A DNA stretch of 12,785 bases from Paludibacteraceae bacterium (GTDB lineage Bacteria > Bacteroidota > Bacteroidia > Bacteroidales > Paludibacteraceae). This document shows positions 2 through 12,785 of this stretch, in pieces (the stretch's first letter is position 1; the number at the start of each line of letters is the position of its first letter). Below the pieces are notes generated by a model that was not told the origin of the DNA, did not search any database, and saw only the letters and a list, made by a program, of their open reading frames with translations. The position numbers were made by a program, and so were the translations under genes. The stretch spans positions 1 through 12,785 of the forward strand of contig JAFXWI010000042.1 in assembly GCA_017542915.1 (NCBI GenBank), read 5' to 3'.

Positions 2-2152
2 GCTGAGGTAACTCCTGCTCGCAAGTCTTACGAGGGCTTTGAAGCTCCGGCAGCTCAGACGGTAACTATCCTTGCGGATGGCTCGCTTGTGGTAACCTAT
101 AATTACACGCGTAAGAGTTATGCTCTGTCTTGGGTTACGGACGGAGATGCGCTGACAGGTAGTTATACTACGGGTAGCACGAAGTATGGTGCAGCAATCA
201 TTGCTCCGAATACTCCGACGAAGACGGGTTATGACTTTGCAGGTTGGAGCAATGGTACGAGCGTGGTAATTCCCGTAGCTACGATGCCTGCTGCTGATAC
301 AGAATACACGGCAACATGGACACCGGTGAACTACACGATTACGTTCGATAGCAACGGTGGTACTGAGGTAGCATCTATTACTCAGGGTTATGAAACGTCT
401 GTAACGCCTCCGGCGAATCCGACCCGAACGGGTTATACGTTTGCAAATTGGAGTCCGGAAGTACCGAGTACAATGCCTCTCGATGGAACAACCTGTGTGG
501 CACAGTGGACACTACAAAACTACACTATCTCGTATAACTTGGATGGCGGTAACGTAACCTCTGCCAACCCGACAGAATATACGATCGAGAGTGAGGCTAT
601 CACGCTGAACAACCCGACGAAATCCGGCTATACCTTCGATGGTTGGACGGGAACGGGCCTGAGTGGTGCTACTGCGACAGTGACCATCGCCGCTGGTTCC
701 ACGGGCGACCGTTCTTACACAGCTACGTGGCACATTGCTAGTTCGGATGTACTGGAAGTAGGCGAAACACATGAGAAGCAGATCACCATTAACTCCAACG
801 AATCCGTAACGACTACAATCGTACACGCAGATGGTAAATTGAATATAGAGTATGGTAAGACACTTACTACGACTGAGCTCATCCTACAGGCATCTGAAAG
901 CACTTCCGGAGAGATTATTAGGGGGAAAAATGCGTCTGGTGAGTTTGCTGGTGGTATAGATGTTCCGTCAAACGCTTACTTCGATCTTACGCATACGGGA
1001 GGCTTTAAGGCTCGTACTTGGTATGCGGTGGCCGTGCCTTGGGAGGTATTAGTACCGGCTTATCAGGTAAACGGTGTATATCTTAAGATAGGAGATGAAT
1101 ACGTGCAGCAGAGACTGGGCGAAACGTACGATTTGATTTTCTATGATGGCAAGCATCGTGCAACAACAGGCGAGAACAAAGCATGGACCTACGTAGAGGA
1201 CTACTATGCTGCTCACACAGAAAAAGAGTATCCTGTGATGGAGCCTGGAGTCGCGTATATGATTTACCTCACTTCGGATGCGGATGTGATTCGTTTCAAA
1301 AAGCGTACAAATGCGCCAGTCCATACGACTGGTCTGCAAGTAACTGAACATGATTCTCCCATTAAGGCAGATAAGCACTGGAACGGTATTGCTAACCCCG
1401 CCACCTACCATGCTCGCATTGACTTAAGTAGTGTAAAGGTTTATTTCGGTCAAGTGTATAGCGATCCGATAAAACAACTGTATAGTGTGTTTGACTTGAG
1501 CGAGAAACTCGTGGTTGGCCAACCGGTCTTCGTACAAGTGCCTTCGACGAGCTCGGTAGAAGTGAGTGCTCCGTCTCTTGCACGACGCCGCGCGAAAGAG
1601 CAGGTATCGATTACGCGCTATGACTTGATGTTGGCGGCCAGCGATGCGGATGTGACCGACCGTGTGATTGTTCGCATGGACGAGGAGAAGACGGAGAACG
1701 AGTATGTCATAGGTCAAGACCTCGTGAAGATGGGCGTGAGTGACAAGGCTCCCCAGATGTGGATTAATCGCTATGGAGAAAAGATGTGTGTCAACACCGT
1801 AGCCGGATATGCCAACACAGCTGATTATCCGCTGGGTATCTTTGCGCCGAAGAATGGCGAATATGACCTCTTTATCGATGACCAACCGAATGACGAGACG
1901 ATGCTTTATCTGACGTATGACGGTGAGGCTATATGGAACCTCAGCTACGGAGGTTATGTGGCATCTCTGGAGAAGGGAACCAATACGCACTATGGCTTGC
2001 GTATCGTGAAGAAAGCTCCGCAGATTACTACCGGTATCGAGGAGACAACCGTCCAGAACGGCGAGGCTGTTCGCAAGGTGCTCGTAAATGATAAGGTATA
2101 TATCATCCGTAACGGAGAAATTTATAGTGTAACCGGACAAAAGGCAAAATGA
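2..2152 (+). CDS. InlB_B/MucBP-like repeat surface protein, 3' part (5' end outside the window)
   Basis: The reading frame is open to the first base of the window, so only the last 716 residues are visible; the in-frame GTG at 89 is not a true start. Visible residues 1-36 resemble a MucBP-like unit (GFEAPAAQTVTILADGSLVV). Three InlB_B (Listeria-Bacteroides, Flg_new) repeats follow at about 37-107, 109-170 and 173-243, each with the hallmark P-T-[KR]-[ST]-G-Y-x-F-x-x-W and a closing A-x-W. Residues 244-676 form a module I know from Bacteroidales repeat proteins, with landmarks such as YDLIFYDGKHRA, PGVAYMIYL, WNGIANP, PQMWINRY and LTYDGEAIWNLSYGGYV. The last 40 residues carry a short tail (VYIIRNGEIYSVTGQ) of the type also found on the 449-aa and 428-aa proteins downstream. 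The likely location is the cell surface, as an adhesin or matrix protein; that is inferred from the family. No catalytic motif was seen. It is followed after 2 nt by a small ORF, which suggests one transcript. Confidence 0.93.
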   Translation, partial: AEVTPARKSYEGFEAPAAQTVTILADGSLVVTYNYTRKSYALSWVTDGDALTGSYTTGSTKYGAAIIAPNTPTKTGYDFAGWSNGTSVVIPVATMPAADTEYTATWTPVNYTITFDSNGGTEVASITQGYETSVTPPANPTRTGYTFANWSPEVPSTMPLDGTTCVAQWTLQNYTISYNLDGGNVTSANPTEYTIESEAITLNNPTKSGYTFDGWTGTGLSGATATVTIAAGSTGDRSYTATWHIASSDVLEVGETHEKQITINSNESVTTTIVHADGKLNIEYGKTLTTTELILQASESTSGEIIRGKNASGEFAGGIDVPSNAYFDLTHTGGFKARTWYAVAVPWEVLVPAYQVNGVYLKIGDEYVQQRLGETYDLIFYDGKHRATTGENKAWTYVEDYYAAHTEKEYPVMEPGVAYMIYLTSDADVIRFKKRTNAPVHTTGLQVTEHDSPIKADKHWNGIANPATYHARIDLSSVKVYFGQVYSDPIKQLYSVFDLSEKLVVGQPVFVQVPSTSSVEVSAPSLARRRAKEQVSITRYDLMLAASDADVTDRVIVRMDEEKTENEYVIGQDLVKMGVSDKAPQMWINRYGEKMCVNTVAGYANTADYPLGIFAPKNGEYDLFIDDQPNDETMLYLTYDGEAIWNLSYGGYVASLEKGTNTHYGLRIVKKAPQITTGIEETTVQNGEAVRKVLVNDKVYIIRNGEIYSVTGQKAK

Positions 2153-2316: not shown

Positions 2317-4152
2317 ATGAAACGATTGTATAGTGCTTTCATATGCGCATGCGCCCTATTACTAATAGGAACGGGCGTGCCCGCGTACGCACAAAAGGAC
2401 GGATCGACTTGCTATAAGGCGATTCCGATTACGAAGGACTTTCAGGTGGAGATCACATCGTCCCAGACGGTGTGGTACACCGCCGGAACATTCGACTTGC
2501 CTTTGGCAGTGTACTTCATCCCGCAGAACGAGTCCGACCCGGCTCCGGAAGTGGAGATGGACTTCAGTTGTACCAGTCGTGTGTACTCGGATCCGATCAT
2601 CTGTATGTTGTTCTGTAAAGGAGGAACAATCAGTATGCCTATGCCGCATAAACCCCCGTTGGAGACAACGAGAATAGACGGCAAACTGGCGTATTATATC
2701 TCCGTCGGTAAGTCCTATCGAGACCTGTTGTTGCAGATGGGTATCGATTATAACGTGGATGTGATGATTAAAGTGACTTATCATGCGGCCGGTTCTATGA
2801 GTATAGCCCCCGATGATATGTTCTCCACCTGTGTAGATGTGGCTAAGATTGCCCATTTCGGCGATTCGATACCCGTGGAGGCCAACGATAAGGAGAGTTA
2901 TGTGATTGTGCCTTACGTACAATGGCAATATGATTCTATCCAATATGAGTGGTACGGCACCTCGCCATGTATTCTTTCTATCGCCAACAAATGTACGTTT
3001 GATCCGACCAGCGCAACGGATGGAGCTATCATGGATGGCGGACCGAATAGCCCCTCTAACCCCTTGCAACCCGGAGATAAATGGAAGGTGACGAGCGACC
3101 TGCTGATGAAATATGTCAGCGATACGGTGAATTATCCGAATGAAGCCGGTATGTTCTTCGCGAAGTTCTACAGTGAGGAGCCGGGAGGCGTGAAGATCAC
3201 GAAAATACCTACCGTACCTCCGCGCAAAAACGCTACCCTGATGCGCTATGATCGTGCGTATGCGCTCAGCGCCAATGAGACCGATATTTATGCCATACCG
3301 AATTCATGGGTGGAGGATATTGAGTTCAGCACCCCGACGATGCACCTGTTTAGCATGACGATTGCTTCCGATCCGGATTTCTCAGAGGAGCATACGCTCG
3401 CTACCTATGCGTTCAATCCCGCGGATGACGGCCATCTCTTGCCGCTGACGAGCACGGAGTTGAAAGAGTTATGGAAAAAGGCAACAGAGCAGTATTTATA
3501 TGTGCGTTTCGTATGCTCGGAGGCGACCACTATCACGGCGTCTAAACAGAGTCCCTCTCCCTGTTCAGCCAAAGCCAAACTGATTTCCAAAGGACAGGAA
3601 ATAACCGTCACGAAATATCAAAACGGAAGTGTATTCTATCGGATCTATTACAACCATTGGAAGGGCGGGGATATGACTTTCGAATGGAAAAATACTCGTA
3701 CCAAATGTCAGATATACATGGGCGATACCTGCTCTTTCGCGAACTCGACAACCGATGAGCATGTGTTCTTAAACGCAGAAGTCCCGACCAATGGCACGTG
3801 GACGCTGACAAAGGAGCAGTTGGAAACATTTGAGAAATACGTTGATGGAGACGGATTCCTGTATATTCTCTTTTGGACGGGAGCGCAAGCAAAGATGGAG
3901 ATCACTTCCGATGCTCCCGAGGAGACCGATCCGGTTTATCCGACGAACACCATCACGGTGGCTTGTGATGAGAATAAAAAGCCATTTGTTGAGGTAAATA
4001 AAGCGCAAACGATTCTCATCAAAGATGAGTCGGGCGCGGTGGTCAAAACCATCGAGGATTTGCAACCGGAAACGAAGTATTCGCTCTCCGATTTACCCGC
4101 CGGAAAATACACATTAGTGGGAGAAACGGACGAAATTGTCGTAAATTTGTAG
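2317..4152 (+). CDS. Secreted 611-aa protein with four degenerate WY/Cys-type repeats and a T9SS-like tail
   Basis: I do not recognise this as a named protein. Residues 1-25 are a Sec signal peptide with likely cleavage after AYA (AYA|QKDG). About four related units follow, roughly at 28-166, 167-303, 304-412 and 413-540. Three units have an N-terminal Cys (C32, C172, C416) and a second Cys 53-56 residues later (C85, C226, C472); the third unit lacks both. Each unit has an aromatic strand where the giant downstream protein has WY (VWY at 52, SYVIV at 194, DIYAI at 323, VFYRI at 439). Units two to four also share a late segment of the form 'L..ELL..Y......LY..F' (for example LTKEQLETFEKY). Residues 546-611 (ILIKDESGAVVKT, then LPAGKYTL and a closing strand) resemble a T9SS type A sorting domain, more weakly than the 1692-aa protein does. 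No Shine-Dalgarno precedes the ATG. The gene probably shares a transcript with the two genes upstream. An extracellular binding or structural role is inferred. Confidence 0.92.
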   Translation: MKRLYSAFICACALLLIGTGVPAYAQKDGSTCYKAIPITKDFQVEITSSQTVWYTAGTFDLPLAVYFIPQNESDPAPEVEMDFSCTSRVYSDPIICMLFCKGGTISMPMPHKPPLETTRIDGKLAYYISVGKSYRDLLLQMGIDYNVDVMIKVTYHAAGSMSIAPDDMFSTCVDVAKIAHFGDSIPVEANDKESYVIVPYVQWQYDSIQYEWYGTSPCILSIANKCTFDPTSATDGAIMDGGPNSPSNPLQPGDKWKVTSDLLMKYVSDTVNYPNEAGMFFAKFYSEEPGGVKITKIPTVPPRKNATLMRYDRAYALSANETDIYAIPNSWVEDIEFSTPTMHLFSMTIASDPDFSEEHTLATYAFNPADDGHLLPLTSTELKELWKKATEQYLYVRFVCSEATTITASKQSPSPCSAKAKLISKGQEITVTKYQNGSVFYRIYYNHWKGGDMTFEWKNTRTKCQIYMGDTCSFANSTTDEHVFLNAEVPTNGTWTLTKEQLETFEKYVDGDGFLYILFWTGAQAKMEITSDAPEETDPVYPTNTITVACDENKKPFVEVNKAQTILIKDESGAVVKTIEDLQPETKYSLSDLPAGKYTLVGETDEIVVNL

Positions 4153-4220: not shown

Positions 4221-4240
4221 CGCACTGAATTTTCGTGTAT

Positions 4241-5590
4241 ATGCGTGATATACGTGCACATATAGTGATTTGCCTGCTGCTCGTTATGTCGAGTATGCTT
4301 TGTGCGCAGCAGTTGGTGCCTGCCGGCATCACGGCGGATAAGGCGAATCCCATCACCGAGCCGACGATGCTGACGGTCCAGAGCGGAAGCAATTATATCC
4401 GTTTCGACGAGGAGCGTCTGCCGGCGGTGGTGACCTATACGTCCTCCGAGGCTTTTGGCCCGATACCAGCGGCGTTGTCGCTGGGCGATACGATCAAGGC
4501 GGAGTTGGTGTTTGCCGACTGCGGCATGGCTTGGCGCTGGACGGTGGAGGAAGGCGAGGGAGATAAGATCGTTGAGATTAAGGCGCATGAGAGCGCCGTC
4601 ATTAACGCTGCTCCCTATATGTGTAATACCACCTTCGGTGATACGACTGCTGTGGCTTACGATTCGTTCACATGGTATGAAGAGACTTTGACTACAAGCG
4701 GTGACTATACGCATGTGCTGACGAATGCTGCAGGATGTGACTCTATCCTGACATTGCATCTGACGATAGAGCAAGCAACATGTACTACCACCTTTGGTGA
4801 TACGACTGCTGTGGCTTACGATTCGTTCACGTGGTATGAAGAGACTTTGGCTACAAGCGGCGACTATACGCATGTGCTGACGAATGCTGCAGGATGTGAC
4901 TCGATCCTGACATTGCATCTGACGATAGAGCAAGCAACATGTACTACCACCTTCGGTGATACGACCGCGGTAGTTTGTGAATCGTTCAGGTGGTATAGCC
5001 AGACCTTGGCTACAAGCGGCGACTATACGCATGTGCTGATGAATGCTGCCGGTTGCGACTCGATCGTGACGTTGCATCTGACGATAGAGCACAATTGCGG
5101 ATCGTACGATACGGCGTATTTCTGCCGCGGTTTCAATACGGAGCACGAGGAGCTGATGGCGGGCGGCGTGATTCGTCGCTATCGTCCCTATGTGTTCGAG
5201 TCGCCGGCGGAGTGGGATTACATGGAGGGCGTGATTGTGGAGCGTGAGCATGATCGTGCGTTAGTCGACCTGCGCCGCGCGGAGAAGAACCTCTATGCGC
5301 ATTATGTCGGCCAACTGACGCCGATCAGTTCTATCCGCTGGAGCGTGCAATACGACGGCAAGGGCCAGTACGAGCCGCTGACAGTGACCAACAATCCCCA
5401 ATGGATCGCTACCGGACATGTGGCGGTACAGATCAGTTTCCTTTGCGGTGAGTTATACAACACCGAGTTCCCCACCGATATCGACCAGGTGTCGCAGGAG
5501 ATGGTGTCCATCAAGCGCATTGAGAACGGCCGCGTAGTGATCATTCGCGGCGGTGCTAAATACGATATGTTCGGAACCAAAATTCAATAA
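4241..5590 (+). CDS. Secreted 449-aa protein with three 53-residue GCDS-type tandem repeats
   Basis: The ATG at 4241 is preferred over an in-frame GTG at 4235 because it gives a compact signal peptide (residues 1-22, likely cleavage CA|QQ). Residues 23-127 are an unassigned N-terminal region. Residues 128-180, 181-233 and 234-285 are tandem copies of a unit with C-x-x-T-F-G-D-T, a W-Y strand, T-S-G-D-Y-T-H-V-L and A-G-C-D-S-I. This resembles the widespread Bacteroidota surface-adhesin repeat with a 'tsGtYt...aGCDSivtL.Ltv' pattern. Residues 291-402 form a domain that also occurs near the C-terminus of the 1692-aa protein (shared landmarks: F-x-C-[RK]-G, S-S-I-[RK]-W, T-N-[NQ]-P). The last 37 residues hold a short tail (RVVIIRGGAKYDMFGTKIQ) like those of the first gene and the next gene. 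It lies 4 nt before the 428-aa gene and directly behind the promoter, so it probably leads an operon. Surface location is inferred. Confidence 0.92.
   Translation: MRDIRAHIVICLLLVMSSMLCAQQLVPAGITADKANPITEPTMLTVQSGSNYIRFDEERLPAVVTYTSSEAFGPIPAALSLGDTIKAELVFADCGMAWRWTVEEGEGDKIVEIKAHESAVINAAPYMCNTTFGDTTAVAYDSFTWYEETLTTSGDYTHVLTNAAGCDSILTLHLTIEQATCTTTFGDTTAVAYDSFTWYEETLATSGDYTHVLTNAAGCDSILTLHLTIEQATCTTTFGDTTAVVCESFRWYSQTLATSGDYTHVLMNAAGCDSIVTLHLTIEHNCGSYDTAYFCRGFNTEHEELMAGGVIRRYRPYVFESPAEWDYMEGVIVEREHDRALVDLRRAEKNLYAHYVGQLTPISSIRWSVQYDGKGQYEPLTVTNNPQWIATGHVAVQISFLCGELYNTEFPTDIDQVSQEMVSIKRIENGRVVIIRGGAKYDMFGTKIQ
4622..5095 (+). repeat. Three-copy in-frame tandem repeat (159, 159 and 156 bp)
   Basis: Units start at 4622, 4781 and 4940, each with a TGT Cys codon, and encode 53, 53 and 52 residues. 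By eye the first two units differ at only about eight positions. The third diverges mainly in its middle (4965-5005). The near-identity at DNA level indicates recent duplication or gene conversion. Copy number may vary between strains. Confidence 0.95.
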
Positions 5591-5594
5591 CACA

Positions 5595-6881
5595 ATGAAA
5601 ACGACGCATTGGATCATAGGAATGCTGATGCTGCTCCCGCTGCAAGCGATGGCGCAGGCTACATCGTGTGCCGACGATGAGTTCTGGAAGGTGTATAAAG
5701 ACTCGCTGCCTGATACCTACTGCGAGTGCACCTATAACACGACACCGTTTGCCTTCCCGATAGACACGGTCTTGACCGGATCGGTATGGTTCTCCGCTAC
5801 GATGGCGGACGTACGTCAGGGTATCTCCGCTTATTGGTTCTCTACGGACTCCGTGGTGCTGGATATCTATGCATTCTGTATCAGCCACCGTCCGACCTTC
5901 TCGATGATTGTTCCGCCGAACCGTATGTATGAATTGCCGGTAGAGGAGATCAATAAGCGTATCGACGAGCTGCCCGGTAGCGCGGAGTACCTCAAGACGC
6001 TCGAGCCGCGTATCCATGCTTATACGCTGCATGGCGGCGTAGGAACGGTCTATTGCTATCCGTATAATCATGGCCCGCATTCGACCTGCGAGAAGCCGAT
6101 GGAGATGCGCTCTTGGATGACTTATGTGTGCGAAGAAGCAGAGAACGTATACCGCATACCGGCGAGCAATATCCCGTCGAAAGGCAAAGCCTTTTTGCGC
6201 TGGATTCATAAACCCGATCACGCGAACCTGAAGAGCCAGCCGGCGGACATCCGCCTGACGCTCGACAGCTGCGATGGCGAAGAAGCAGGCCGCGCGACGA
6301 TTACCGATTCGATGCACGTCTATATGTTCGACTCCGCGATGCTGGTGGATGCCCGCAAAGCCGGCCGAGATGTATGGGTGCATGTGTCGCATGTGGAAGG
6401 TATCACCGGTCGCTTGCGCTATTTCGCCAATCCGAAATATGCGGAGGGCATGCCCGATATCGACGAGTCGATATGTCTCGGCAAGACCCTGACCGTCAAT
6501 GGCCGTGAGTACAATTCGGACACGACGTTTATTGAAGGCATCTATGTCAACCGCGATACGCTTTCGACGCAGCATGTGACCCTGACCTTCACCGAGCCGA
6601 CGCCGATATACGACACCGTCTTGGTAGACCCGAAGGACCTGAAGCGCGGCGTAGTGCATGAGTTGACGGGCGCAGTGCTGTTCAACTACGGCGACACGAT
6701 CATCGATATCGTGGCTCCGAAGCAGTGCACCAAGCGTTACCAAGTGACCGTGAAAGACCCGACCCCGATTGAGAATGTAGATGCGGACCGAAAAGGCGCC
6801 CGCAAACAGATACAAAACGGAAGAATAATCATCTTTGTTGATGAGCGAAAATACAACATCGTAGGACAACAAATTGATTAG
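5595..6881 (+). CDS. Secreted 428-aa protein with two degenerate WY/Cys-type units and a short C-terminal tail
   Basis: The frame is open from 5553, overlapping the previous gene, but the ATG at 5595 is chosen because it begins a signal peptide (MKTTHWIIGM start, likely cleavage AMA|QATSC after residue 20). I do not recognise the mature protein. Residues about 22-160 contain Cys 25, 43 and 45, a GSVWFSA strand near 62-68 and a second Cys at 95. Residues about 161-285 contain C165, a VYRIPASNI strand near 185 and C226, 61 residues after C165. This layout is a degenerate form of the repeat in the 611-aa and 1692-aa proteins. Residues 292-332 (ICLGKTLTVNGREYNSDT and following) resemble the GCDS-type or shared C-terminal module of neighbouring proteins. 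The last 38 residues end in a tail with NGRIIIFVDERKYNIVGQ. It starts 4 nt after the 449-aa gene, so co-transcription is near certain. No enzyme motif was seen; it is probably an extracellular structural or binding protein. Confidence 0.92.
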   Translation: MKTTHWIIGMLMLLPLQAMAQATSCADDEFWKVYKDSLPDTYCECTYNTTPFAFPIDTVLTGSVWFSATMADVRQGISAYWFSTDSVVLDIYAFCISHRPTFSMIVPPNRMYELPVEEINKRIDELPGSAEYLKTLEPRIHAYTLHGGVGTVYCYPYNHGPHSTCEKPMEMRSWMTYVCEEAENVYRIPASNIPSKGKAFLRWIHKPDHANLKSQPADIRLTLDSCDGEEAGRATITDSMHVYMFDSAMLVDARKAGRDVWVHVSHVEGITGRLRYFANPKYAEGMPDIDESICLGKTLTVNGREYNSDTTFIEGIYVNRDTLSTQHVTLTFTEPTPIYDTVLVDPKDLKRGVVHELTGAVLFNYGDTIIDIVAPKQCTKRYQVTVKDPTPIENVDADRKGARKQIQNGRIIIFVDERKYNIVGQQID

Positions 6882-6892
6882 AAATCAAATAA

Positions 6893-6918
6893 CTATTAAT
6901 TAACTCTATTTATTAACT
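6893..6918 (+). repeat. Tandem 13-bp direct repeat in the leader of the giant gene
   Basis: CTATTAATTAACT (6893-6905) is followed directly by CTATTTATTAACT (6906-6918), with one mismatch. The pair lies 17-42 nt before the ATG of the 1692-aa gene, within a 53-bp AT-rich spacer. No TAnnTTTG promoter was found here. The repeat may be a protein-binding site, part of an unstructured translation-enhancing leader, or chance in AT-rich sequence. Confidence 0.6.
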
Positions 6919-6934
6919 AACAACAATCAATCAC

Positions 6935-9900
6935 ATGAAGAAGTTTTTCTTACTAACCATGGCGTCATTGATGACCGTCTTCGCGATGGCTGTCGGACGT
7001 AATGATGGTAGTACCAAAGCCAATGCCATTGACTTTGATTGGGACCAGGGTAATGTGCACCCAGGTGGTACCTTATGGTACCATGTTGACTTGGCTCCCC
7101 TCTACGAAGAGGAGAATCCCTCGTTGACGCTGTATGTGACGAACCCCAGTCGTGACAATTCGGTAAAGGCCAGCCTGACTGCGACTGTTGCCGGTGAGAC
7201 GGAGACGAAACACTACACCGTTACTCCTCACGAGCACCAGATCTACACTACGAATGCAACGATGCTGGTTCGTCTTCACCAGACGGAGATCTATCTCACG
7301 CTGACGACCGATGGCCCGGTGCTCTTGAGTGCAAAGGTGTTTGAAGCTTCGGATCTTGATGAGACCTGTAAGGACGCCAAAGAACTCAAGTGGGACACCG
7401 AGGCAACCCAAACCAAGGGTTATGCAGCATGGTGGAAAGTGGATTTGACCCAGATCAAAGACACGGTGAAGTTCAAGAAAGATGCGAAAGTCACCATCAC
7501 CAACGCTGGTTCCGGCACCGTTAACGTGAAGGCTGGTCAGTCGCTTGACTGCCCGTCGTCCGGTTTGACCAAGCGTAACTACACCCTCGCTGCAGGTAAG
7601 TCCATCGAGGACACCATCCCGCAGAGCATGATCCTGAGTGTGTACCCGGATGAGCTCTATTTCAGCATTGAGAACTTAGAGCAACCGGTGAAGATCAAAG
7701 TGGAAATGGTAGACCAACCGGTAGTGCCGATTATCCCGGCAGGAACGGCTGCCATTGAGATCAAGGCTAACCCGGCGGACACCACTATCGAAAGTGCAAA
7801 CATCCCCGCCGGCACAACGCTGTACGCTTTTAGCGTAGCTGACCTGAATGCACTGGCTAAGTATGAGCCGGAATTCACCTATCGCAACGAGAATGGTACG
7901 GCTGCTAAAGTCACCACCAAGATGGCTTTCGAGCGCCCCGCTTTCGGTACTACGAACGCTAACTACACAATCCCTGCCAAAGAGGACGAGATCGTGGTTT
8001 ACAAAAAGAACATGTTGGACGGTATGACCGGCGTAGACTCGATCTTCCTGCTCACGACTACCGACAAACCGATCAAGTTCTTGGCTCGCTACAAACACGT
8101 ACGTGAGGGTAAGGCTTGTAAGACCAACATCGACTTCAACTGGGAGTCCGGTCATACGCAAGAGGCTCGTACCACACAGTGGTATGCTGTTGAGATCGCT
8201 AACGCACGTGATAACATCGAGGATATCGTTGTTCACTTGAAGAACCTCAACCCGTCGGCTGCGGCTAAAGTAAATGCATCGTTGGCATTCTCCTGCCCGT
8301 ATATCGACCTTCAGGAGATTTCTCACTCGATTGCAGCCGGTAAAGAGGAGACTCGTACGCTGCGTTATTCGACCTATGCGATGATGTCTGACACCGTTTG
8401 GATCGGTTTGGAGACCAACCAGGATCTTAAGTTCTGGGCTACCACCAAGCCGGCACAGACCAAAGAGCCGGATAAAGCTTGTGAGCAAGCTGAGCCGTTC
8501 AACTGGGACAACGGTGTATTCCAAAAGAAGGACACCACCGTATGGTATAAGATTAATATGGAAGAAGTGCGCGAGAAAGCCGCTAAGTTCCCGACCGTAT
8601 TCGTTGAGAACCTGAGTGCTTCGAACCCAGTGAAGATCACCGCTGAGCTTTCGCTCGAGTGCCCGGATTCGATTGAGAACCAGAAACGCGAGTTGACGAT
8701 TGCTGCTAAGGGTACTTACTCCAAGCAGATCGCACGTAACCTCTTCGAGAACATCGTTCAAGATGAGATCTATCTGCGTGTCACCACTACGGAGGATATC
8801 TCGCTGAAAATTCGCTTGACTGAAGAAGCTGCTGGTTCCAGTTGCTCGTCCGCTATCCCGTTCAACTGGGCTTCCGGAAACACGCAGCCTGCCGGTGCTA
8901 ACCTCTGGTACGTAATCGACTTACATTCGGTTATCGAGAGTGGCAATGACCTCAAGCTCCATATGCAGAACCGCGACAACGCGAAGTGCGAAGGTTTCAT
9001 CCAGTTGGCATATAACTGCCCGCTTGAGGAGGCTACTTCGCTCCAGAACTTCACCTTGGCTCCGTACGGACAAAAGGATGCAACTATCCGCAACAGCGCT
9101 ATCGAGGCGATGACGGATGGTGTGGTATATGTAAACGTATCCGGTAGTACTTCCCTCCGCTTCTGGGCTGACAAACTCGAGGTAGTTCCGTTTGATACCA
9201 TCAAGGCTGATGGCATCACGCTCACCGAGCTGAGATGGAACGAGACCTATACCCAGACGGCTGATACCGCATGGTATCTCATTCCGAAGTCCCAGATCGA
9301 ACTCGTTCGTAATCTGGAAGAGAAAATGAAACCGGTAGCTCACCTGATCGACGCTTCTTCGTCCGCGAAGACCATCATGGCTGAGGCTGCATTCGCTTTC
9401 CCGATTGGAAAGAAGATGATGGGTAAGAGCCAAGATCTAAAGGCTAACCAACACTTCGCAGATACGATTCCTGCAGGTACCTTCGACCAAGTGCTTAAGC
9501 ACGACTCGATCATCCTGCGCATCATCCGTACCAAAGGTACCGGTGCCTTCGAGTTCAAGGCTGAACTCGTGAAAGCGTTCAGCGGTAACGATCCGAAGGA
9601 TGCTCTTCCTGTTCGCGTCAATGCGCTCTATACGCAAGCTCCGAACACCGAGATGTGGTATAAGGTTAAGACGGCTGACCTCAAGGCAGACAAGAACCTG
9701 TTCAACAAGGTATTGTATGTAATGGGTAAGAACGCCGGCAAGGGCGATGCGAAAGTGAAAGTAGCTGTTTACGATGGTTACAAACCGAAATATGTTAAGG
9801 AAGATGACCTGCTCATGGATCGCGGTGAGAGAACCATCAAGAAGGGCCAAACGAAATCGCATAATATTCCTGCACAGGCTATCTACGGTGTCGGTGATGT

Positions 9901-12013
9901 AGAGCTCTATATCAAGCTTCGTACGACAGACTCGCTCGTATTCGAGACTAAGTTCAACGGTGAGTATGCCGCTCAAACTCCGGATCCGGAGCAGCAGAAG
10001 GCTAAACTCGTTGTTCCGAACGTACAGTACTCGATCAAGGCTGGTGAGACCCGCTGGTATCGCGTATGTCTGCCGTATATCCAGAACAACTACAAGTACA
10101 TCGATAACTCCAGCCTCGAGTATGAGTTGCCGGGTACGGCTACTATCGAGGTAACCGCTACCTTCCAGGATACGATGAACTGCGCTATGCCGGTTCGCAA
10201 ACGTACCATCAACAAGAGTGGCAAGGCTTATAAGGGCACGAAGACGCTCCGCGAGTTGATCGACCGCGCTATCCGTAAAGCTGGTTACAAGTACGATATC
10301 TCCAGTACCGCTCCTGAATACATCGATAGTATGCTCCATCGCTTTGTAACAAAGGATTCGATCACGCTGTATGTACGCGTGAAGTCCGACCAGGACATCA
10401 AGGCGAAACTCATCACCCCGCAAACGACCGGTGACGACTGCCTCAACGCAATGTCGTTCGATTGGGAGCACGGTAACGTGAACCCGAAGAACCTGATTGG
10501 CGGTGGCAACTCCTGGTATGTAGCTGCGCTGGATACCGCTAAGTTGTTCGCTGAGGGCAAGAGCTTGCGTCTCCACGTTGACAACTGGTCTGAGACCAAT
10601 GCGAACACGGTTTATGCATCGCTCTTCTTCAAGTGTGGTGACCCGTCGCAAGGTGACATCTCGAAGACCATCCCGGCTGACTCCTCTTTGACGAAAGATA
10701 TCGCTCTTGACTTCATTAAGGCTTCCAGCCCGCAACTCATGTTCATCGAGTTCAACTCGACGGAGGACGCACATATCTGGATTGAGAAGATTGATATCAA
10801 GCGCGACACCGTACGCGTTGACACTACGTTCTTCGTATGTAAGGGTGGCGACGTGCTGGGTAAGACCATCAACGTTGATACCCTCTGGAACGATACGATT
10901 CGCAACATCAAGGACAACGAGAGAATGATGCTGTATGATTCGATCACGACCGTTCATGCCTTTGTTCTCCGCGAGCCGAAGACGTATGACATCTCTGATC
11001 AAGTAGACATCGAGCGCAATGCTGTGCTTGACCTGACTACTGCTGACACGTGGTTGAAAGCACAGTATGCTGCTGATGACAACGATACGATTCAGACGCT
11101 GTCGAGTATCAAGTGGCAATATGCTGTTTATCCGAGTGAGACCTTCAAGGATATTGACTTGACGAACCAACCGACCGTAACTTCGGAGCGTATCAAAGTA
11201 AGATACTTCGCATTTACGGAGTGTACGGAAGGTCAAGATCCGGATCCGTCTAAGGGTATCGTAGTATATAAGAACTATCTGAATACCGCGCGCGATACCG
11301 CTAAGATTACTGCATGTAACATGTATAAGTGGGCGGAGAATGATTCGACTTATATCGAGTCTACCACGGCTAATCCTGACTCGGTTGTCTTCCCGGGCGG
11401 TGTAAACTGGGGTGATAGTATCCTCTACTTGAGCCTGACGTTGAATAACCCGGCTAAGATGGACCTCAAGGCTATTGCTAAGTATGGTAACCGTCTGTTG
11501 CTCATCAACCGTTGGGACTTCGCTAAGTACGGCTTCGCAACCGATTCGATCTACACCTCTGGTGGTGCAGTGAAGGTTGAGTGGTTCGAGATGTTGGGTG
11601 CAACTCCGGATCCTGAGAATACGGATAAGTTCTTGGTTGAAGGCTATTCGTATAACAAGGCTGATGGTTCGCCGCTGGTAGGTACCTTCTACGCTGTTGT
11701 AAAGGTAGATAACGGAACCGCTTGCGGTCTCTACGGACGTACGAATACGCTCGTTTGTGGTGCACCTGCCGGCGTTGCTCCGCTGCTCGCTCCGAGCATC
11801 GTAATGCCGGGTGAGGACATCAAGGTGCTCAACCTCAATCCGGACCAAGAGACCACGATCCGCATCTTCACGACCGAGGGTCTGCTCCACAATACCTATA
11901 AGGTAAGCGGACAGGAGACCTTCACGATCAAGGCTGCGAACGATCATGGCTTCTACCTGGTAGAGCTCTTGAGCGGCGACGAGAAGTCCACTTTACGTTA
12001 TATTGTTAAATAA
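6935..12013 (+). CDS. Giant secreted 1692-aa protein with ten WY/Cys repeats and a T9SS type A-like tail
   Basis: Residues 1-19 are a signal peptide (MKKFFLLTMASLMTVFAMA). Residues 22-1290 hold ten degenerate tandem units of about 118-150 residues. Each contains an aromatic hallmark, with the position of its W or equivalent at 48, 166, 296, 416, 537, 658, 780, 908, 1041 and 1194; WY is present in eight, WW in one and LY in one. Better conserved units also show C-x-x-A, F-x-W-x-x-G and a later C-P. Residues 1298-1430 match the 449-aa protein's C-terminal domain. Residues about 1431-1612 are unassigned. Residues 1613-1692 (TTIRIFTTEGLL ... GFYLVELLSGDEKSTLRYIV in outline) have the form of a Por_Secre_tail/TIGR04183 sorting domain, implying export by the T9SS and surface attachment or release. 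Strand-rich repeats with a WY-x-V strand recall PPC-like beta-sandwich domains, which is only a guess. Codon use is strongly biased, suggesting high expression. No Shine-Dalgarno precedes the ATG. No catalytic motif was seen. Confidence 0.95.
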   Translation: MKKFFLLTMASLMTVFAMAVGRNDGSTKANAIDFDWDQGNVHPGGTLWYHVDLAPLYEEENPSLTLYVTNPSRDNSVKASLTATVAGETETKHYTVTPHEHQIYTTNATMLVRLHQTEIYLTLTTDGPVLLSAKVFEASDLDETCKDAKELKWDTEATQTKGYAAWWKVDLTQIKDTVKFKKDAKVTITNAGSGTVNVKAGQSLDCPSSGLTKRNYTLAAGKSIEDTIPQSMILSVYPDELYFSIENLEQPVKIKVEMVDQPVVPIIPAGTAAIEIKANPADTTIESANIPAGTTLYAFSVADLNALAKYEPEFTYRNENGTAAKVTTKMAFERPAFGTTNANYTIPAKEDEIVVYKKNMLDGMTGVDSIFLLTTTDKPIKFLARYKHVREGKACKTNIDFNWESGHTQEARTTQWYAVEIANARDNIEDIVVHLKNLNPSAAAKVNASLAFSCPYIDLQEISHSIAAGKEETRTLRYSTYAMMSDTVWIGLETNQDLKFWATTKPAQTKEPDKACEQAEPFNWDNGVFQKKDTTVWYKINMEEVREKAAKFPTVFVENLSASNPVKITAELSLECPDSIENQKRELTIAAKGTYSKQIARNLFENIVQDEIYLRVTTTEDISLKIRLTEEAAGSSCSSAIPFNWASGNTQPAGANLWYVIDLHSVIESGNDLKLHMQNRDNAKCEGFIQLAYNCPLEEATSLQNFTLAPYGQKDATIRNSAIEAMTDGVVYVNVSGSTSLRFWADKLEVVPFDTIKADGITLTELRWNETYTQTADTAWYLIPKSQIELVRNLEEKMKPVAHLIDASSSAKTIMAEAAFAFPIGKKMMGKSQDLKANQHFADTIPAGTFDQVLKHDSIILRIIRTKGTGAFEFKAELVKAFSGNDPKDALPVRVNALYTQAPNTEMWYKVKTADLKADKNLFNKVLYVMGKNAGKGDAKVKVAVYDGYKPKYVKEDDLLMDRGERTIKKGQTKSHNIPAQAIYGVGDVELYIKLRTTDSLVFETKFNGEYAAQTPDPEQQKAKLVVPNVQYSIKAGETRWYRVCLPYIQNNYKYIDNSSLEYELPGTATIEVTATFQDTMNCAMPVRKRTINKSGKAYKGTKTLRELIDRAIRKAGYKYDISSTAPEYIDSMLHRFVTKDSITLYVRVKSDQDIKAKLITPQTTGDDCLNAMSFDWEHGNVNPKNLIGGGNSWYVAALDTAKLFAEGKSLRLHVDNWSETNANTVYASLFFKCGDPSQGDISKTIPADSSLTKDIALDFIKASSPQLMFIEFNSTEDAHIWIEKIDIKRDTVRVDTTFFVCKGGDVLGKTINVDTLWNDTIRNIKDNERMMLYDSITTVHAFVLREPKTYDISDQVDIERNAVLDLTTADTWLKAQYAADDNDTIQTLSSIKWQYAVYPSETFKDIDLTNQPTVTSERIKVRYFAFTECTEGQDPDPSKGIVVYKNYLNTARDTAKITACNMYKWAENDSTYIESTTANPDSVVFPGGVNWGDSILYLSLTLNNPAKMDLKAIAKYGNRLLLINRWDFAKYGFATDSIYTSGGAVKVEWFEMLGATPDPENTDKFLVEGYSYNKADGSPLVGTFYAVVKVDNGTACGLYGRTNTLVCGAPAGVAPLLAPSIVMPGEDIKVLNLNPDQETTIRIFTTEGLLHNTYKVSGQETFTIKAANDHGFYLVELLSGDEKSTLRYIVK
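6998..10804 (+). repeat. Ten-unit protein repeat region of the giant protein (WY/Cys repeat)
   Basis: Approximate residue limits are 22-140, 141-262, 265-392, 393-512, 513-635, 636-752, 753-884, 885-1018, 1019-1166 and 1167-1290. Distances between successive aromatic hallmarks are 118, 130, 120, 121, 121, 122, 128, 133 and 153 residues. Units 4, 5 and 6 are the most alike (F-N-W near the start, WY, CP). The units have diverged at DNA level, so this is an old amplification, unlike the recent one in the 449-aa gene. Boundaries are approximate, and units 3, 7, 8 and 9 are the least certain. Confidence 0.85.
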
Positions 12014-12030: not shown

Positions 12031-12785
12031 ATGAAAACTATTAAATCAATTTTAATTGCAGCCACCCTGATTTGTGCAACGGCCGTTTCGGCTCAAGAAG
12101 CACAAGCTCCGAAACATGAGTTTAAAGTGGCTATCGGAGACTCCGTAATGATTAAGCGTGAGTGTCAAAAGTACTGCACGGGTGAGACTCCTTCTGTTTG
12201 GGTATGGGATAAAGTTCATACGGTTCGTCAGTTGGGTACCAAGCGTTTCCCGGACGGCGTGCTGTTGATGAACATCTATTCCTGGATGTGCGAGGACTGC
12301 TTGATCCCGGTTAACGGTCAGGCAGAAGAGAAAGCCGAGCAGGCTAAGAAAGAGCAAGCCGGCCAGAAAAAGGCATACGAGCAGGCAGTGAAGGACGGTA
12401 AGAAAGCCGAAGCTGCTAAGGCTGCTGAAGAAGTGAAGAAAGCAGAAGAGGCAAAGGCTGCCGCTGCTGCAACTGCTGCTGCCGCCGCAGAGCCTGTTAA
12501 GGCTGAAGAGGCTAAGGCTGCAGAGCCTGCAAAAGCAGTAGAGCCCGCTAAGGCAGAAGAGGCTAAGAAAGCTGAAGAAGCAAAAGCCGCTGAGGCTGCT
12601 AAGGCTGAAGAGGAGAAACCTCTTGCTGCTGACGGCGTAAAGCACGAGGCCGCTAAGGGTGACTCTATTCACTCGAAGCAGGACTTCCGTAGCGGTTACG
12701 ATCGCTTCACGATCGGCGTACGCGGCGGTGTGGCTTCGCAGTTGCACCAAGCTGTTTCCGGCGTGAATGCACATTGGGGTATCGG
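12031..12785 (+). CDS. Outer-membrane beta-barrel-type protein with SH3-like domain and Ala/Glu/Lys linker, 5' part (3' end outside the window)
   Basis: The frame runs from the ATG at 12031 to the window end (251 complete codons, no stop). Residues 1-21 are a signal peptide (AVSA|QEA). Residues 30-95 form a compact domain (KVHTVRQLGTKRFPDGVLL, then IYSW) resembling a small SH3-like fold that I recall from secreted and cell-wall-associated bacterial proteins. It contains four cysteines arranged as C45-x3-C49 and C87-x2-C90. Residues about 98-198 are almost purely Ala, Glu and Lys with some Pro, a TolA-like helical linker. From about 218 the pattern changes to alternating residues (YDRFTIGVRGGVASQL), typical of the first strands of a Bacteroidales outer-membrane barrel. 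The protein probably sits in the outer membrane with its N-terminal part in the periplasm, perhaps touching peptidoglycan; that is inference. It follows the giant gene by 17 nt, so co-transcription is likely, and it has an unusual strong Shine-Dalgarno. Confidence 0.88.
   Translation, partial: MKTIKSILIAATLICATAVSAQEAQAPKHEFKVAIGDSVMIKRECQKYCTGETPSVWVWDKVHTVRQLGTKRFPDGVLLMNIYSWMCEDCLIPVNGQAEEKAEQAKKEQAGQKKAYEQAVKDGKKAEAAKAAEEVKKAEEAKAAAAATAAAAAEPVKAEEAKAAEPAKAVEPAKAEEAKKAEEAKAAEAAKAEEEKPLAADGVKHEAAKGDSIHSKQDFRSGYDRFTIGVRGGVASQLHQAVSGVNAHWGI
12322..12624 (+). repeat. Low-complexity Ala/Glu/Lys coding stretch
   Basis: About 100 codons use almost only GCN, GAR and AAR triplets in irregular K-A-E-E-A and K-A-A-E-P patterns. 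This encodes the helical linker of the last protein. Such DNA is prone to length variation by slippage. It also creates a long spurious open frame on the opposite strand. Confidence 0.9.

Follow-up and report, generated by a model that had tools for sequence, protein, structure and literature searches.

Results

Locus organization and the ten-unit protein

The stretch of DNA analyzed here (hereafter, the window) comprises 12,785 nucleotides of contig JAFXWI010000042.1 from a Paludibacteraceae bacterium (assembly GCA_017542915.1) and encodes a 1692-aa protein, referred to below as the ten-unit protein, which carries 10 consecutive, strongly diverged copies of one domain in front of a C-terminal tail. 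Its gene is preceded by those for a List_Bact-repeat protein and the exported-looking proteins na, nb, and nc, and is followed by the start of a gene named OMP1 (Table 1). The array spans residues 22 to 1292 (positions 6998 to 10810), with units of 117 to 148 residues. An initial annotation, made from the sequence alone, had placed 10 units at 6998..10804 and described an aromatic WY strand recurring every 118 to 133 residues in 8 of the 9 intervals, and both statements hold: the WY-type strands lie at residues 48, 166, 297, 416, 537, 658, 780, 908, 1041, and 1194, at intervals of 118, 131, 119, 121, 121, 122, 128, and 133 residues, the ninth interval being 153. The motifs it listed were overstated, since the strand reads W[YW]x[VI] in 8 of the 10 units (unit 10 has WYVA and unit 3 has LYAF), whereas the accompanying FxWxxG and CP are found in 5 and 4 units, respectively.

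Table 1. Features of the window. Residue numbers refer to the ten-unit protein.
Feature	Coordinates	Strand	Basis
List_Bact-repeat protein, cut by window start	2..2152	+	PF09479, 5e-27
na, exported-looking, 611 aa; N-terminus resembles unit start	2317..4152	+	HHalign
nb, exported-looking, 451 aa; three near-identical 53-residue repeats	4235..5590	+	ORF (open reading frame)
nc, exported-looking, 428 aa, directly upstream of ten-unit gene	5595..6881	+	Conserved neighbor
Ten-unit protein (P0001), 1692 aa	6935..12013	+	ORF and translation
Putative signal peptide, residues 1-21	6935..6997	+	By-eye reading of MKKFFLLTMASLMTVFAMA; typical look at residues 1-20
Unit 1, residues 22-138, without cysteine pair	6998..7348	+	HMM, profile-profile, AlphaFold2
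Unit 2, residues 139-262, C145/C206	7349..7720	+	HMM, profile-profile, AlphaFold2; sub-cut-off PF05506 match
Unit 3, residues 263-388, WY strand degenerate, without cysteine pair	7721..8098	+	HMM, profile-profile, AlphaFold2
Unit 4, residues 389-509, C395/C454	8099..8461	+	HMM, profile-profile, AlphaFold2
Unit 5, residues 510-630, C516/C576	8462..8824	+	HMM, profile-profile, AlphaFold2
Unit 6, residues 631-753, C637/C695	8825..9193	+	HMM, profile-profile, AlphaFold2
Unit 7, residues 754-880	9194..9574	+	HMM, profile-profile, AlphaFold2
Unit 8, residues 881-1014	9575..9976	+	HMM, profile-profile, AlphaFold2
Unit 9, residues 1015-1162, most diverged in sequence, helical insertion	9977..10420	+	HMM marginal; profile-profile; AlphaFold2 topology shared
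Unit 10, residues 1163-1292, C1169/C1234	10421..10810	+	HMM and profile-profile; outside both AlphaFold2 models
Variable tail region, residues 1293-1626	10811..11812	+	Length behind array differs widely among core orthologs
Putative C-terminal sorting domain of type IX secretion system (T9SS) type, residues 1627-1692	11813..12010	+	TIGR04183, sub-cut-off
OMP1, start of a probable outer-membrane barrel of about 470 aa, cut by window end	12031..12783	+	Conserved neighbor; barrel by eye

The units share a mean identity of 18.2%, and because a plain self-BLASTP of the protein returned no internal repeat, profiles were required to see it. With these, the ten-copy repeat is confirmed. In a leave-one-out hidden Markov model (HMM) comparison, 9 units scored 23.4 to 91.6 bits, versus at most 14.2 bits for their shuffled counterparts (1000 shuffles per unit, of which 861 to 993 were scored), and unit 9 was marginal, at 11.2 versus 11.1 bits. 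Profile-profile comparison (HHalign) gave probabilities above 50% for 37 of the 45 unit pairs and above 90% for 34, compared with none above 50% among 100 reversed controls (3 exceeded 20%, the highest reaching 41.4) and none above 20% in 30 comparisons of units with the C-terminal region. The 8 failing pairs combine unit 9 with units 1, 2, 3, 4, 6, and 7, and unit 3 with units 8 and 10; unit 9 is connected to the array through unit 5 (95.4%), unit 8 (91.8%), and unit 10 (63.3%). Structure prediction of 2 adjacent units, which the initial annotation had proposed as a check, yielded a repeated fold (units 5 and 6; mean predicted local distance difference test score [pLDDT] 87.0), and in the AlphaFold2 model of units 1 to 9 (mean pLDDT 80.4) the order of strands and helices is identical in all units, with a single beta-sandwich topology. 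Unit 10 is absent from both models, and its predicted membership rests on the profiles.

Family assignment of the units

No Pfam or NCBIfam model exceeded its cut-off anywhere on the ten-unit protein, and searches of Pfam, NCBIfam, and PDB sequences returned no family for the units, so that the initial annotation, which could assign no named family, was right on this point in both whole-protein and single-unit HMM searches. Its suggestion of a strand-rich, PPC-like beta-sandwich is compatible with the fold predicted for units 1 to 9, and the sequence profile does not match PPC. PF04151 (PPC) was not listed for the whole protein at E ≤ 1, for the 10 single units at E ≤ 10, or for 23 relatives at E ≤ 0.01. 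A profile built from 25 PPC domains (Bacteroidota matches to PF04151 over the cut-off, 2 of them only jointly with neighboring matches) reached a probability of at most 3.0% with the 10 units and their combined profile, near the maximum of 1.3% for reversed controls; one half of the PPC set against the other, as a positive control, gave 99.6%. The predicted unit fold appears similar to the jelly-roll/PPC collagen-binding domains, but the profile test places the unit outside PPC. The closest Pfam model is PF05506 (PLipase_C_C), with a partial match to residues 183 to 229, that is, about 47 residues of unit 2, at 19.7 bits versus the 24.4 bits needed; this model was matched at E ≤ 0.01 in 10 of the 23 relatives (best 1.6e-8) and is precomputed for 8 of the best 120 of 271 homologs. 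A fold search with the nine-unit model was not useful against the PDB, where it retrieved large multidomain proteins with template modeling scores (TM-scores, model-normalized) of 0.06 to 0.11. A fold search against viral proteins returned numerous matches of low TM-score, none of them a lead. Overall, the initial interpretation is partly supported, and the fixed number of units, described next, goes beyond it.

Distribution and constancy of the unit number

Among 7993 proteins scored, 271 are homologous to the ten-unit protein at E ≤ 0.001, the best 120 of which are 55% to 97% identical to it over 99% to 100% of the query. A scan of species genomes identified 51 related loci with best-segment identities of 35% to 78%, all titled Bacteroidales or Paludibacteraceae bacterium and several originating from ruminant stomach samples. 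In whole-genome samples, units were present in 69 of 300 genomes of the family, 3 of 393 of the order (two profiles), and 1 of 395 of the phylum; the single positive of the phylum sample is the center genome itself, and the 3 order-level positives recur in the family sample. Judging from the genomes sampled, the units appear to be restricted to a single Bacteroidales family.

Units were counted with an HMM built from the units of 16 orthologs. Ten were found in 50 of the 52 core proteins (close relatives, window included), and the remaining 2, from loci L040 and L050, are cut by contig ends and count 7 and 8 units, so that all 50 complete core proteins have exactly 10, a figure which does not represent 50 independent events, since the core orthologs share kinship. 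Eleven loci (L081-L091), all on contigs that match core contigs in length, and L094, which likewise duplicates the contig of core locus L015, were left out of the unit, tail, and cysteine counts. The argument is carried by 23 distant proteins, a non-random set drawn from 20 hand-picked positive family genomes, mostly from divergent rows, supplemented with genomes G249 and G387. Of these proteins, 16 have 10 units, 3 have 8, 2 have 11, and single proteins have 4 and 3. One of those counted at 8 units, L102, contains a 258-residue gap that may hide 2 missed units.

The units also largely keep their positions. The core unit of the same position was the best match for 118 of 170 distant units, a count that becomes 99 of 108 when a margin of at least 10 bits is required (L094 included; by subtraction, 108 of 160 and 89 of 98 without it). 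The ten-unit array is old, predating the clade, and has been kept rather than renewed by duplication, because the mean pairwise identity of same-position units between core orthologs is 45.3% to 63.0% per unit, versus 18.2% between units within the window protein. By contrast with the fixed array, which ends at residue 1258 to 1314 in core proteins, the tail behind it varies from 381 to 853 aa, with a mean pairwise identity of 31.6% for residues 1293 to 1500; the tail of L014, of 362 aa and split over 2 ORFs, was kept apart from this range.

Three distant loci have additional arrangements. In L095 (G586), array proteins of 10 and 11 units flank a single OMP1 gene, with nc beside the ten-unit one. 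L092 (G249) encodes, at 5036-8083, a second, 1016-aa protein with 4 units, alongside the ten-unit protein of the same genome. L099 encodes, at 8042-9424, a 461-aa protein with 3 units only, in a locus that includes a PorW gene; this protein matched 3 proteins at E ≤ 0.001 among 7997 scored.

A cysteine pair in most units

Two cysteines recur within the units and nearly always occur together or are jointly missing: among 728 units, both are present in 415 and neither in 284, the second occurs without the first in 28, and the first without the second in 1. This co-occurrence supports a predicted disulfide bond within the unit. Counting L094, both cysteines of units 8 and 9 are mostly missing in the core and both present in the distant set, 5 core proteins lack both cysteines of unit 10, and unit 7 accounts for many of the lone-cysteine exceptions.

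Neighboring genes

The trio of nc, ten-unit protein, and OMP1 is conserved in core and distant genomes. Among arrays with enough flanking sequence, the gene immediately upstream is nc in all 49 core arrays and in 17 of 21 distant ones (gaps of 7 to 68 bp and 15 to 176 bp, respectively). The gene immediately downstream is OMP1 in 48 of 49 core arrays (−1 to 20 bp) and in 18 of 19 distant ones (12 to 63 bp), the one core exception being L014, in which the distance is 1270 bp. The neighbor models were trained on core loci, which makes the core figures partly circular, and the distant figures are the test. OMP1 has a KAEE-rich linker and, judged by eye, a barrel-like C-terminus, and is a probable outer-membrane barrel; in the window, a KAEE/AEPAKA low-complexity repeat occupies positions 12487-12613, where it separates the N-terminal part, which contains cysteine, from the presumed barrel. 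Beyond the window, 44 of 48 core loci have a gene for PorW/SprE (NF052312, 590 bits in L001) no more than 4 kb downstream.

Residues 27 to 61 of na matched the combined unit profile with an HHalign probability of 80.8% (1.8% for reversed units). The same profile gave no link to nb, nc, or OMP1 (at most 3.9%), and single-unit profiles yielded nothing significant against the neighbor proteins, the best being 14.8% for unit 8 with na. In nb, a 159-bp (53-residue) tandem repeat at 4622-5091 is present in 3 near-identical copies (91% matches). Longer ten-unit orthologs (P0058 and P0048, for example) have similar GCDS-type repeats within their variable tails, suggesting that spacer repeats may have been exchanged between neighbors. 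L001 (2660-3484) and relatives have an optional upstream protein of about 280 aa, with a C-terminal hydrophobic segment after PLGATPWLL and no NCBIfam match at E ≤ 0.01. Promoter and terminator scans gave results at or below chance, and Rfam and tRNA scans were empty.

Export and glycosylation signals

TIGR04183, the model for the sorting tail, was matched in the ten-unit ORFs of 3 of 6 relatives, with G387 (35.4 bits) and G249 (24.3 bits) passing the cut-off and G004 (21.9 bits) falling below it, and SprA exceeded its cut-off in 25 of the 26 unit-bearing genomes examined. The motif D[ST][AILVMT] is described in the excerpted text of PMC8550257 as the Bacteroidota O-glycosylation motif, at which exported proteins are glycosylated. 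The window protein has 16 such sites in the array, versus 5.0 expected, and 10 in the tail, versus 2.1, counts which none of 2000 shuffles reached, although such sites do not by themselves establish glycosylation. In core proteins, the motif is enriched over shuffles 3.49-fold in arrays and 5.38-fold in tails, compared with 1.07 and 0.62 for the reversed motif. Neighbors are enriched as well (nc, 6.11; nb, 4.17; OMP1, 3.02; na, 1.97), the cytosolic controls MiaB, TsaB, and GreA stand at 0.95, 0.75, and 0.30, and most control motifs stay around 1 or lower. Together, the nearby PorW, the sorting tail in some orthologs, and the motif enrichment suggest that the ten-unit protein is a glycosylated T9SS surface protein.

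Discussion

We propose that the ten-unit protein is exported through the T9SS, probably O-glycosylated, and located at the cell surface. Its N-terminal part would form a string of exactly 10 jelly-roll/PPC-like beta-sandwich domains, most of them with a disulfide, which a C-terminal spacer of variable length and the sorting tail would hold away from the outer membrane by a distance that differs between species. The protein would work with nc, encoded upstream, and OMP1, encoded downstream, as SprB does with SprF. The most likely function of the string, in our view, is that of a structural element of defined size, such as an S-layer-like (surface-layer) coat subunit or a surface rod of fixed length. 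As a whole, this reading falls just short of what we would call probable.

Several observations weigh against it. By the HMM count, 7 of the 23 distant proteins depart from 10, with 3, 4, 8, or 11 units. On the window protein, the sorting-tail model scored 15.4 bits against a cut-off of 23; it was not listed at E ≤ 0.001 on the ten-unit ORFs of G001, G002, and G003, and NCBIfam gave no match to the L001 protein at E ≤ 0.01. These sorting-tail results have slightly lowered our confidence in the reading. All 17 family genomes without units that were examined have SprA as well, and PorW is encoded within 4 kb downstream in none of 9 distant arrays. OMP1 matched no known barrel family (none in Pfam at E ≤ 0.1 or in the PDB, and a single sub-cut-off, low-complexity match in NCBIfam). 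As to the glycosylation motif, there is a 3.95-fold enrichment in PorW, which its model name describes as a periplasmic lipoprotein and which may itself be glycosylated; the exported-looking List_Bact protein is depleted (0.17), and some controls stray from 1, namely the reversed motif (1.83) and the E-type motif (1.49) in MiaB, the N-S/T motif in OMP1 (1.51), and, from few sites, the N-S/T motif in GreA (5.29), in which the reversed motif reaches 1.43.

Alternatively, the protein could be a multivalent adhesin for carbohydrates or plant fibers, in which each unit binds and tenfold avidity to plant or host polymers is gained. Many repeat arrays on bacterial surfaces are of variable length, and the fixed count of 10 in close relatives points to a surface structure with a set size rather than to a sticky fiber that changes freely; we prefer a structural role and regard the adhesin as unlikely, although it is the strongest of the alternatives. 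Another possibility, that the units are a lineage-specific member of PPC (PF04151) or PLipase_C_C (PF05506) that has drifted past detection and in which the number 10 has no particular significance, would fit the resemblance in fold. Considering that the PPC profile hardly separates the units from reversed controls while recognizing its own other half, and that PF05506 covers only part of one unit, below the cut-off in the window protein, we find it rather improbable. Finally, the protein might belong to the T9SS or to an envelope-spanning machine, as a component or an accessory, and be inherited together with PorW, its 10 units providing a scaffold of set length from the outer membrane to its partners. 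The PorW/SprE gene behind most core arrays and the conservation of gene order and sequence speak for such a role. Outside the core, PorW lies within 4 kb downstream of none of the 9 distant arrays, one distant locus, L099, having a PorW gene near its three-unit protein, and the T9SS does not need the units, because SprA is present in the 17 family genomes examined that lack them. This makes a machine component the least probable of the explanations, and a very unlikely one.

On the preferred reading of a structural element of set size, a broader and distinctly more tentative proposal can be made, namely that nc, the ten-unit protein, and OMP1 form a conserved three-gene module that would build a surface assembly, exported by the T9SS and so far undescribed, within a single Bacteroidales family. 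Selection may act on the domain count itself, and the 10 unlike beta-sandwich domains might serve as a molecular ruler or scaffold, with 10 distinct positions on an adjustable stalk. We call the assembly undescribed because limited literature searches, on Paludibacteraceae, T9SS, and repeats, returned no account of the ten-unit system. If true, a clade-wide count of 10, unlike but orthologous domains, and a conserved probable partner barrel would point to a surface structure of set dimensions in rumen and gut Bacteroidales. The units also constitute a domain family for which no curated model exceeds its cut-off on the ten-unit protein, and they raise the question of why there are 10.

Comparison with known systems

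In their predicted fold, the units appear similar to the PPC/collagen-binding domain of ColG s3a-s3b (PDB 5iku), which we take to be a member of PF04151. They differ from it in that no sequence-profile link to PF04151 was found and in the addition of a conserved cysteine pair, the WY strand, and the number of 10 per protein. With the extracellular domains of SID1/SIDT (PDB 8k11, 8k1b), at about 7% to 13% identity, the units share a common fold at most and not a function: SID1/SIDT are animal membrane proteins tied to double-stranded RNA transport, and a literature search returned nothing linking the SID1 jelly-roll extracellular domain to bacteria.

Further precedents come from Bacteroidota surface biology. 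According to the excerpted text of PMC8550257, the S-layer proteins TfsA and TfsB of Tannerella forsythia are exported by the T9SS and O-glycosylated, TfsB being heavily modified. Both belong to Bacteroidales cell surfaces and carry many D[ST][AILVMT] sites, and the ten-unit protein, itself rich in such sites, would resemble them in export and location. T9SS cargo can also be held by a partner outer-membrane barrel, as portrayed in part of PMC9143113 for SprB/SprF and PG1035-PorP, SprB being large and repetitive and its gene adjoining sprF. The tail of the ten-unit protein resembles the type A sorting model TIGR04183, whereas SprB and PG1035 are type B, and for OMP1 neither Pfam, at E ≤ 0.1, nor the PorP-type models of NCBIfam gave a match. 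What the ten-unit locus has in common with these pairs, as far as that text describes them, is a gene for a large, repetitive, putative cargo lying beside the gene of a putative barrel, OMP1.
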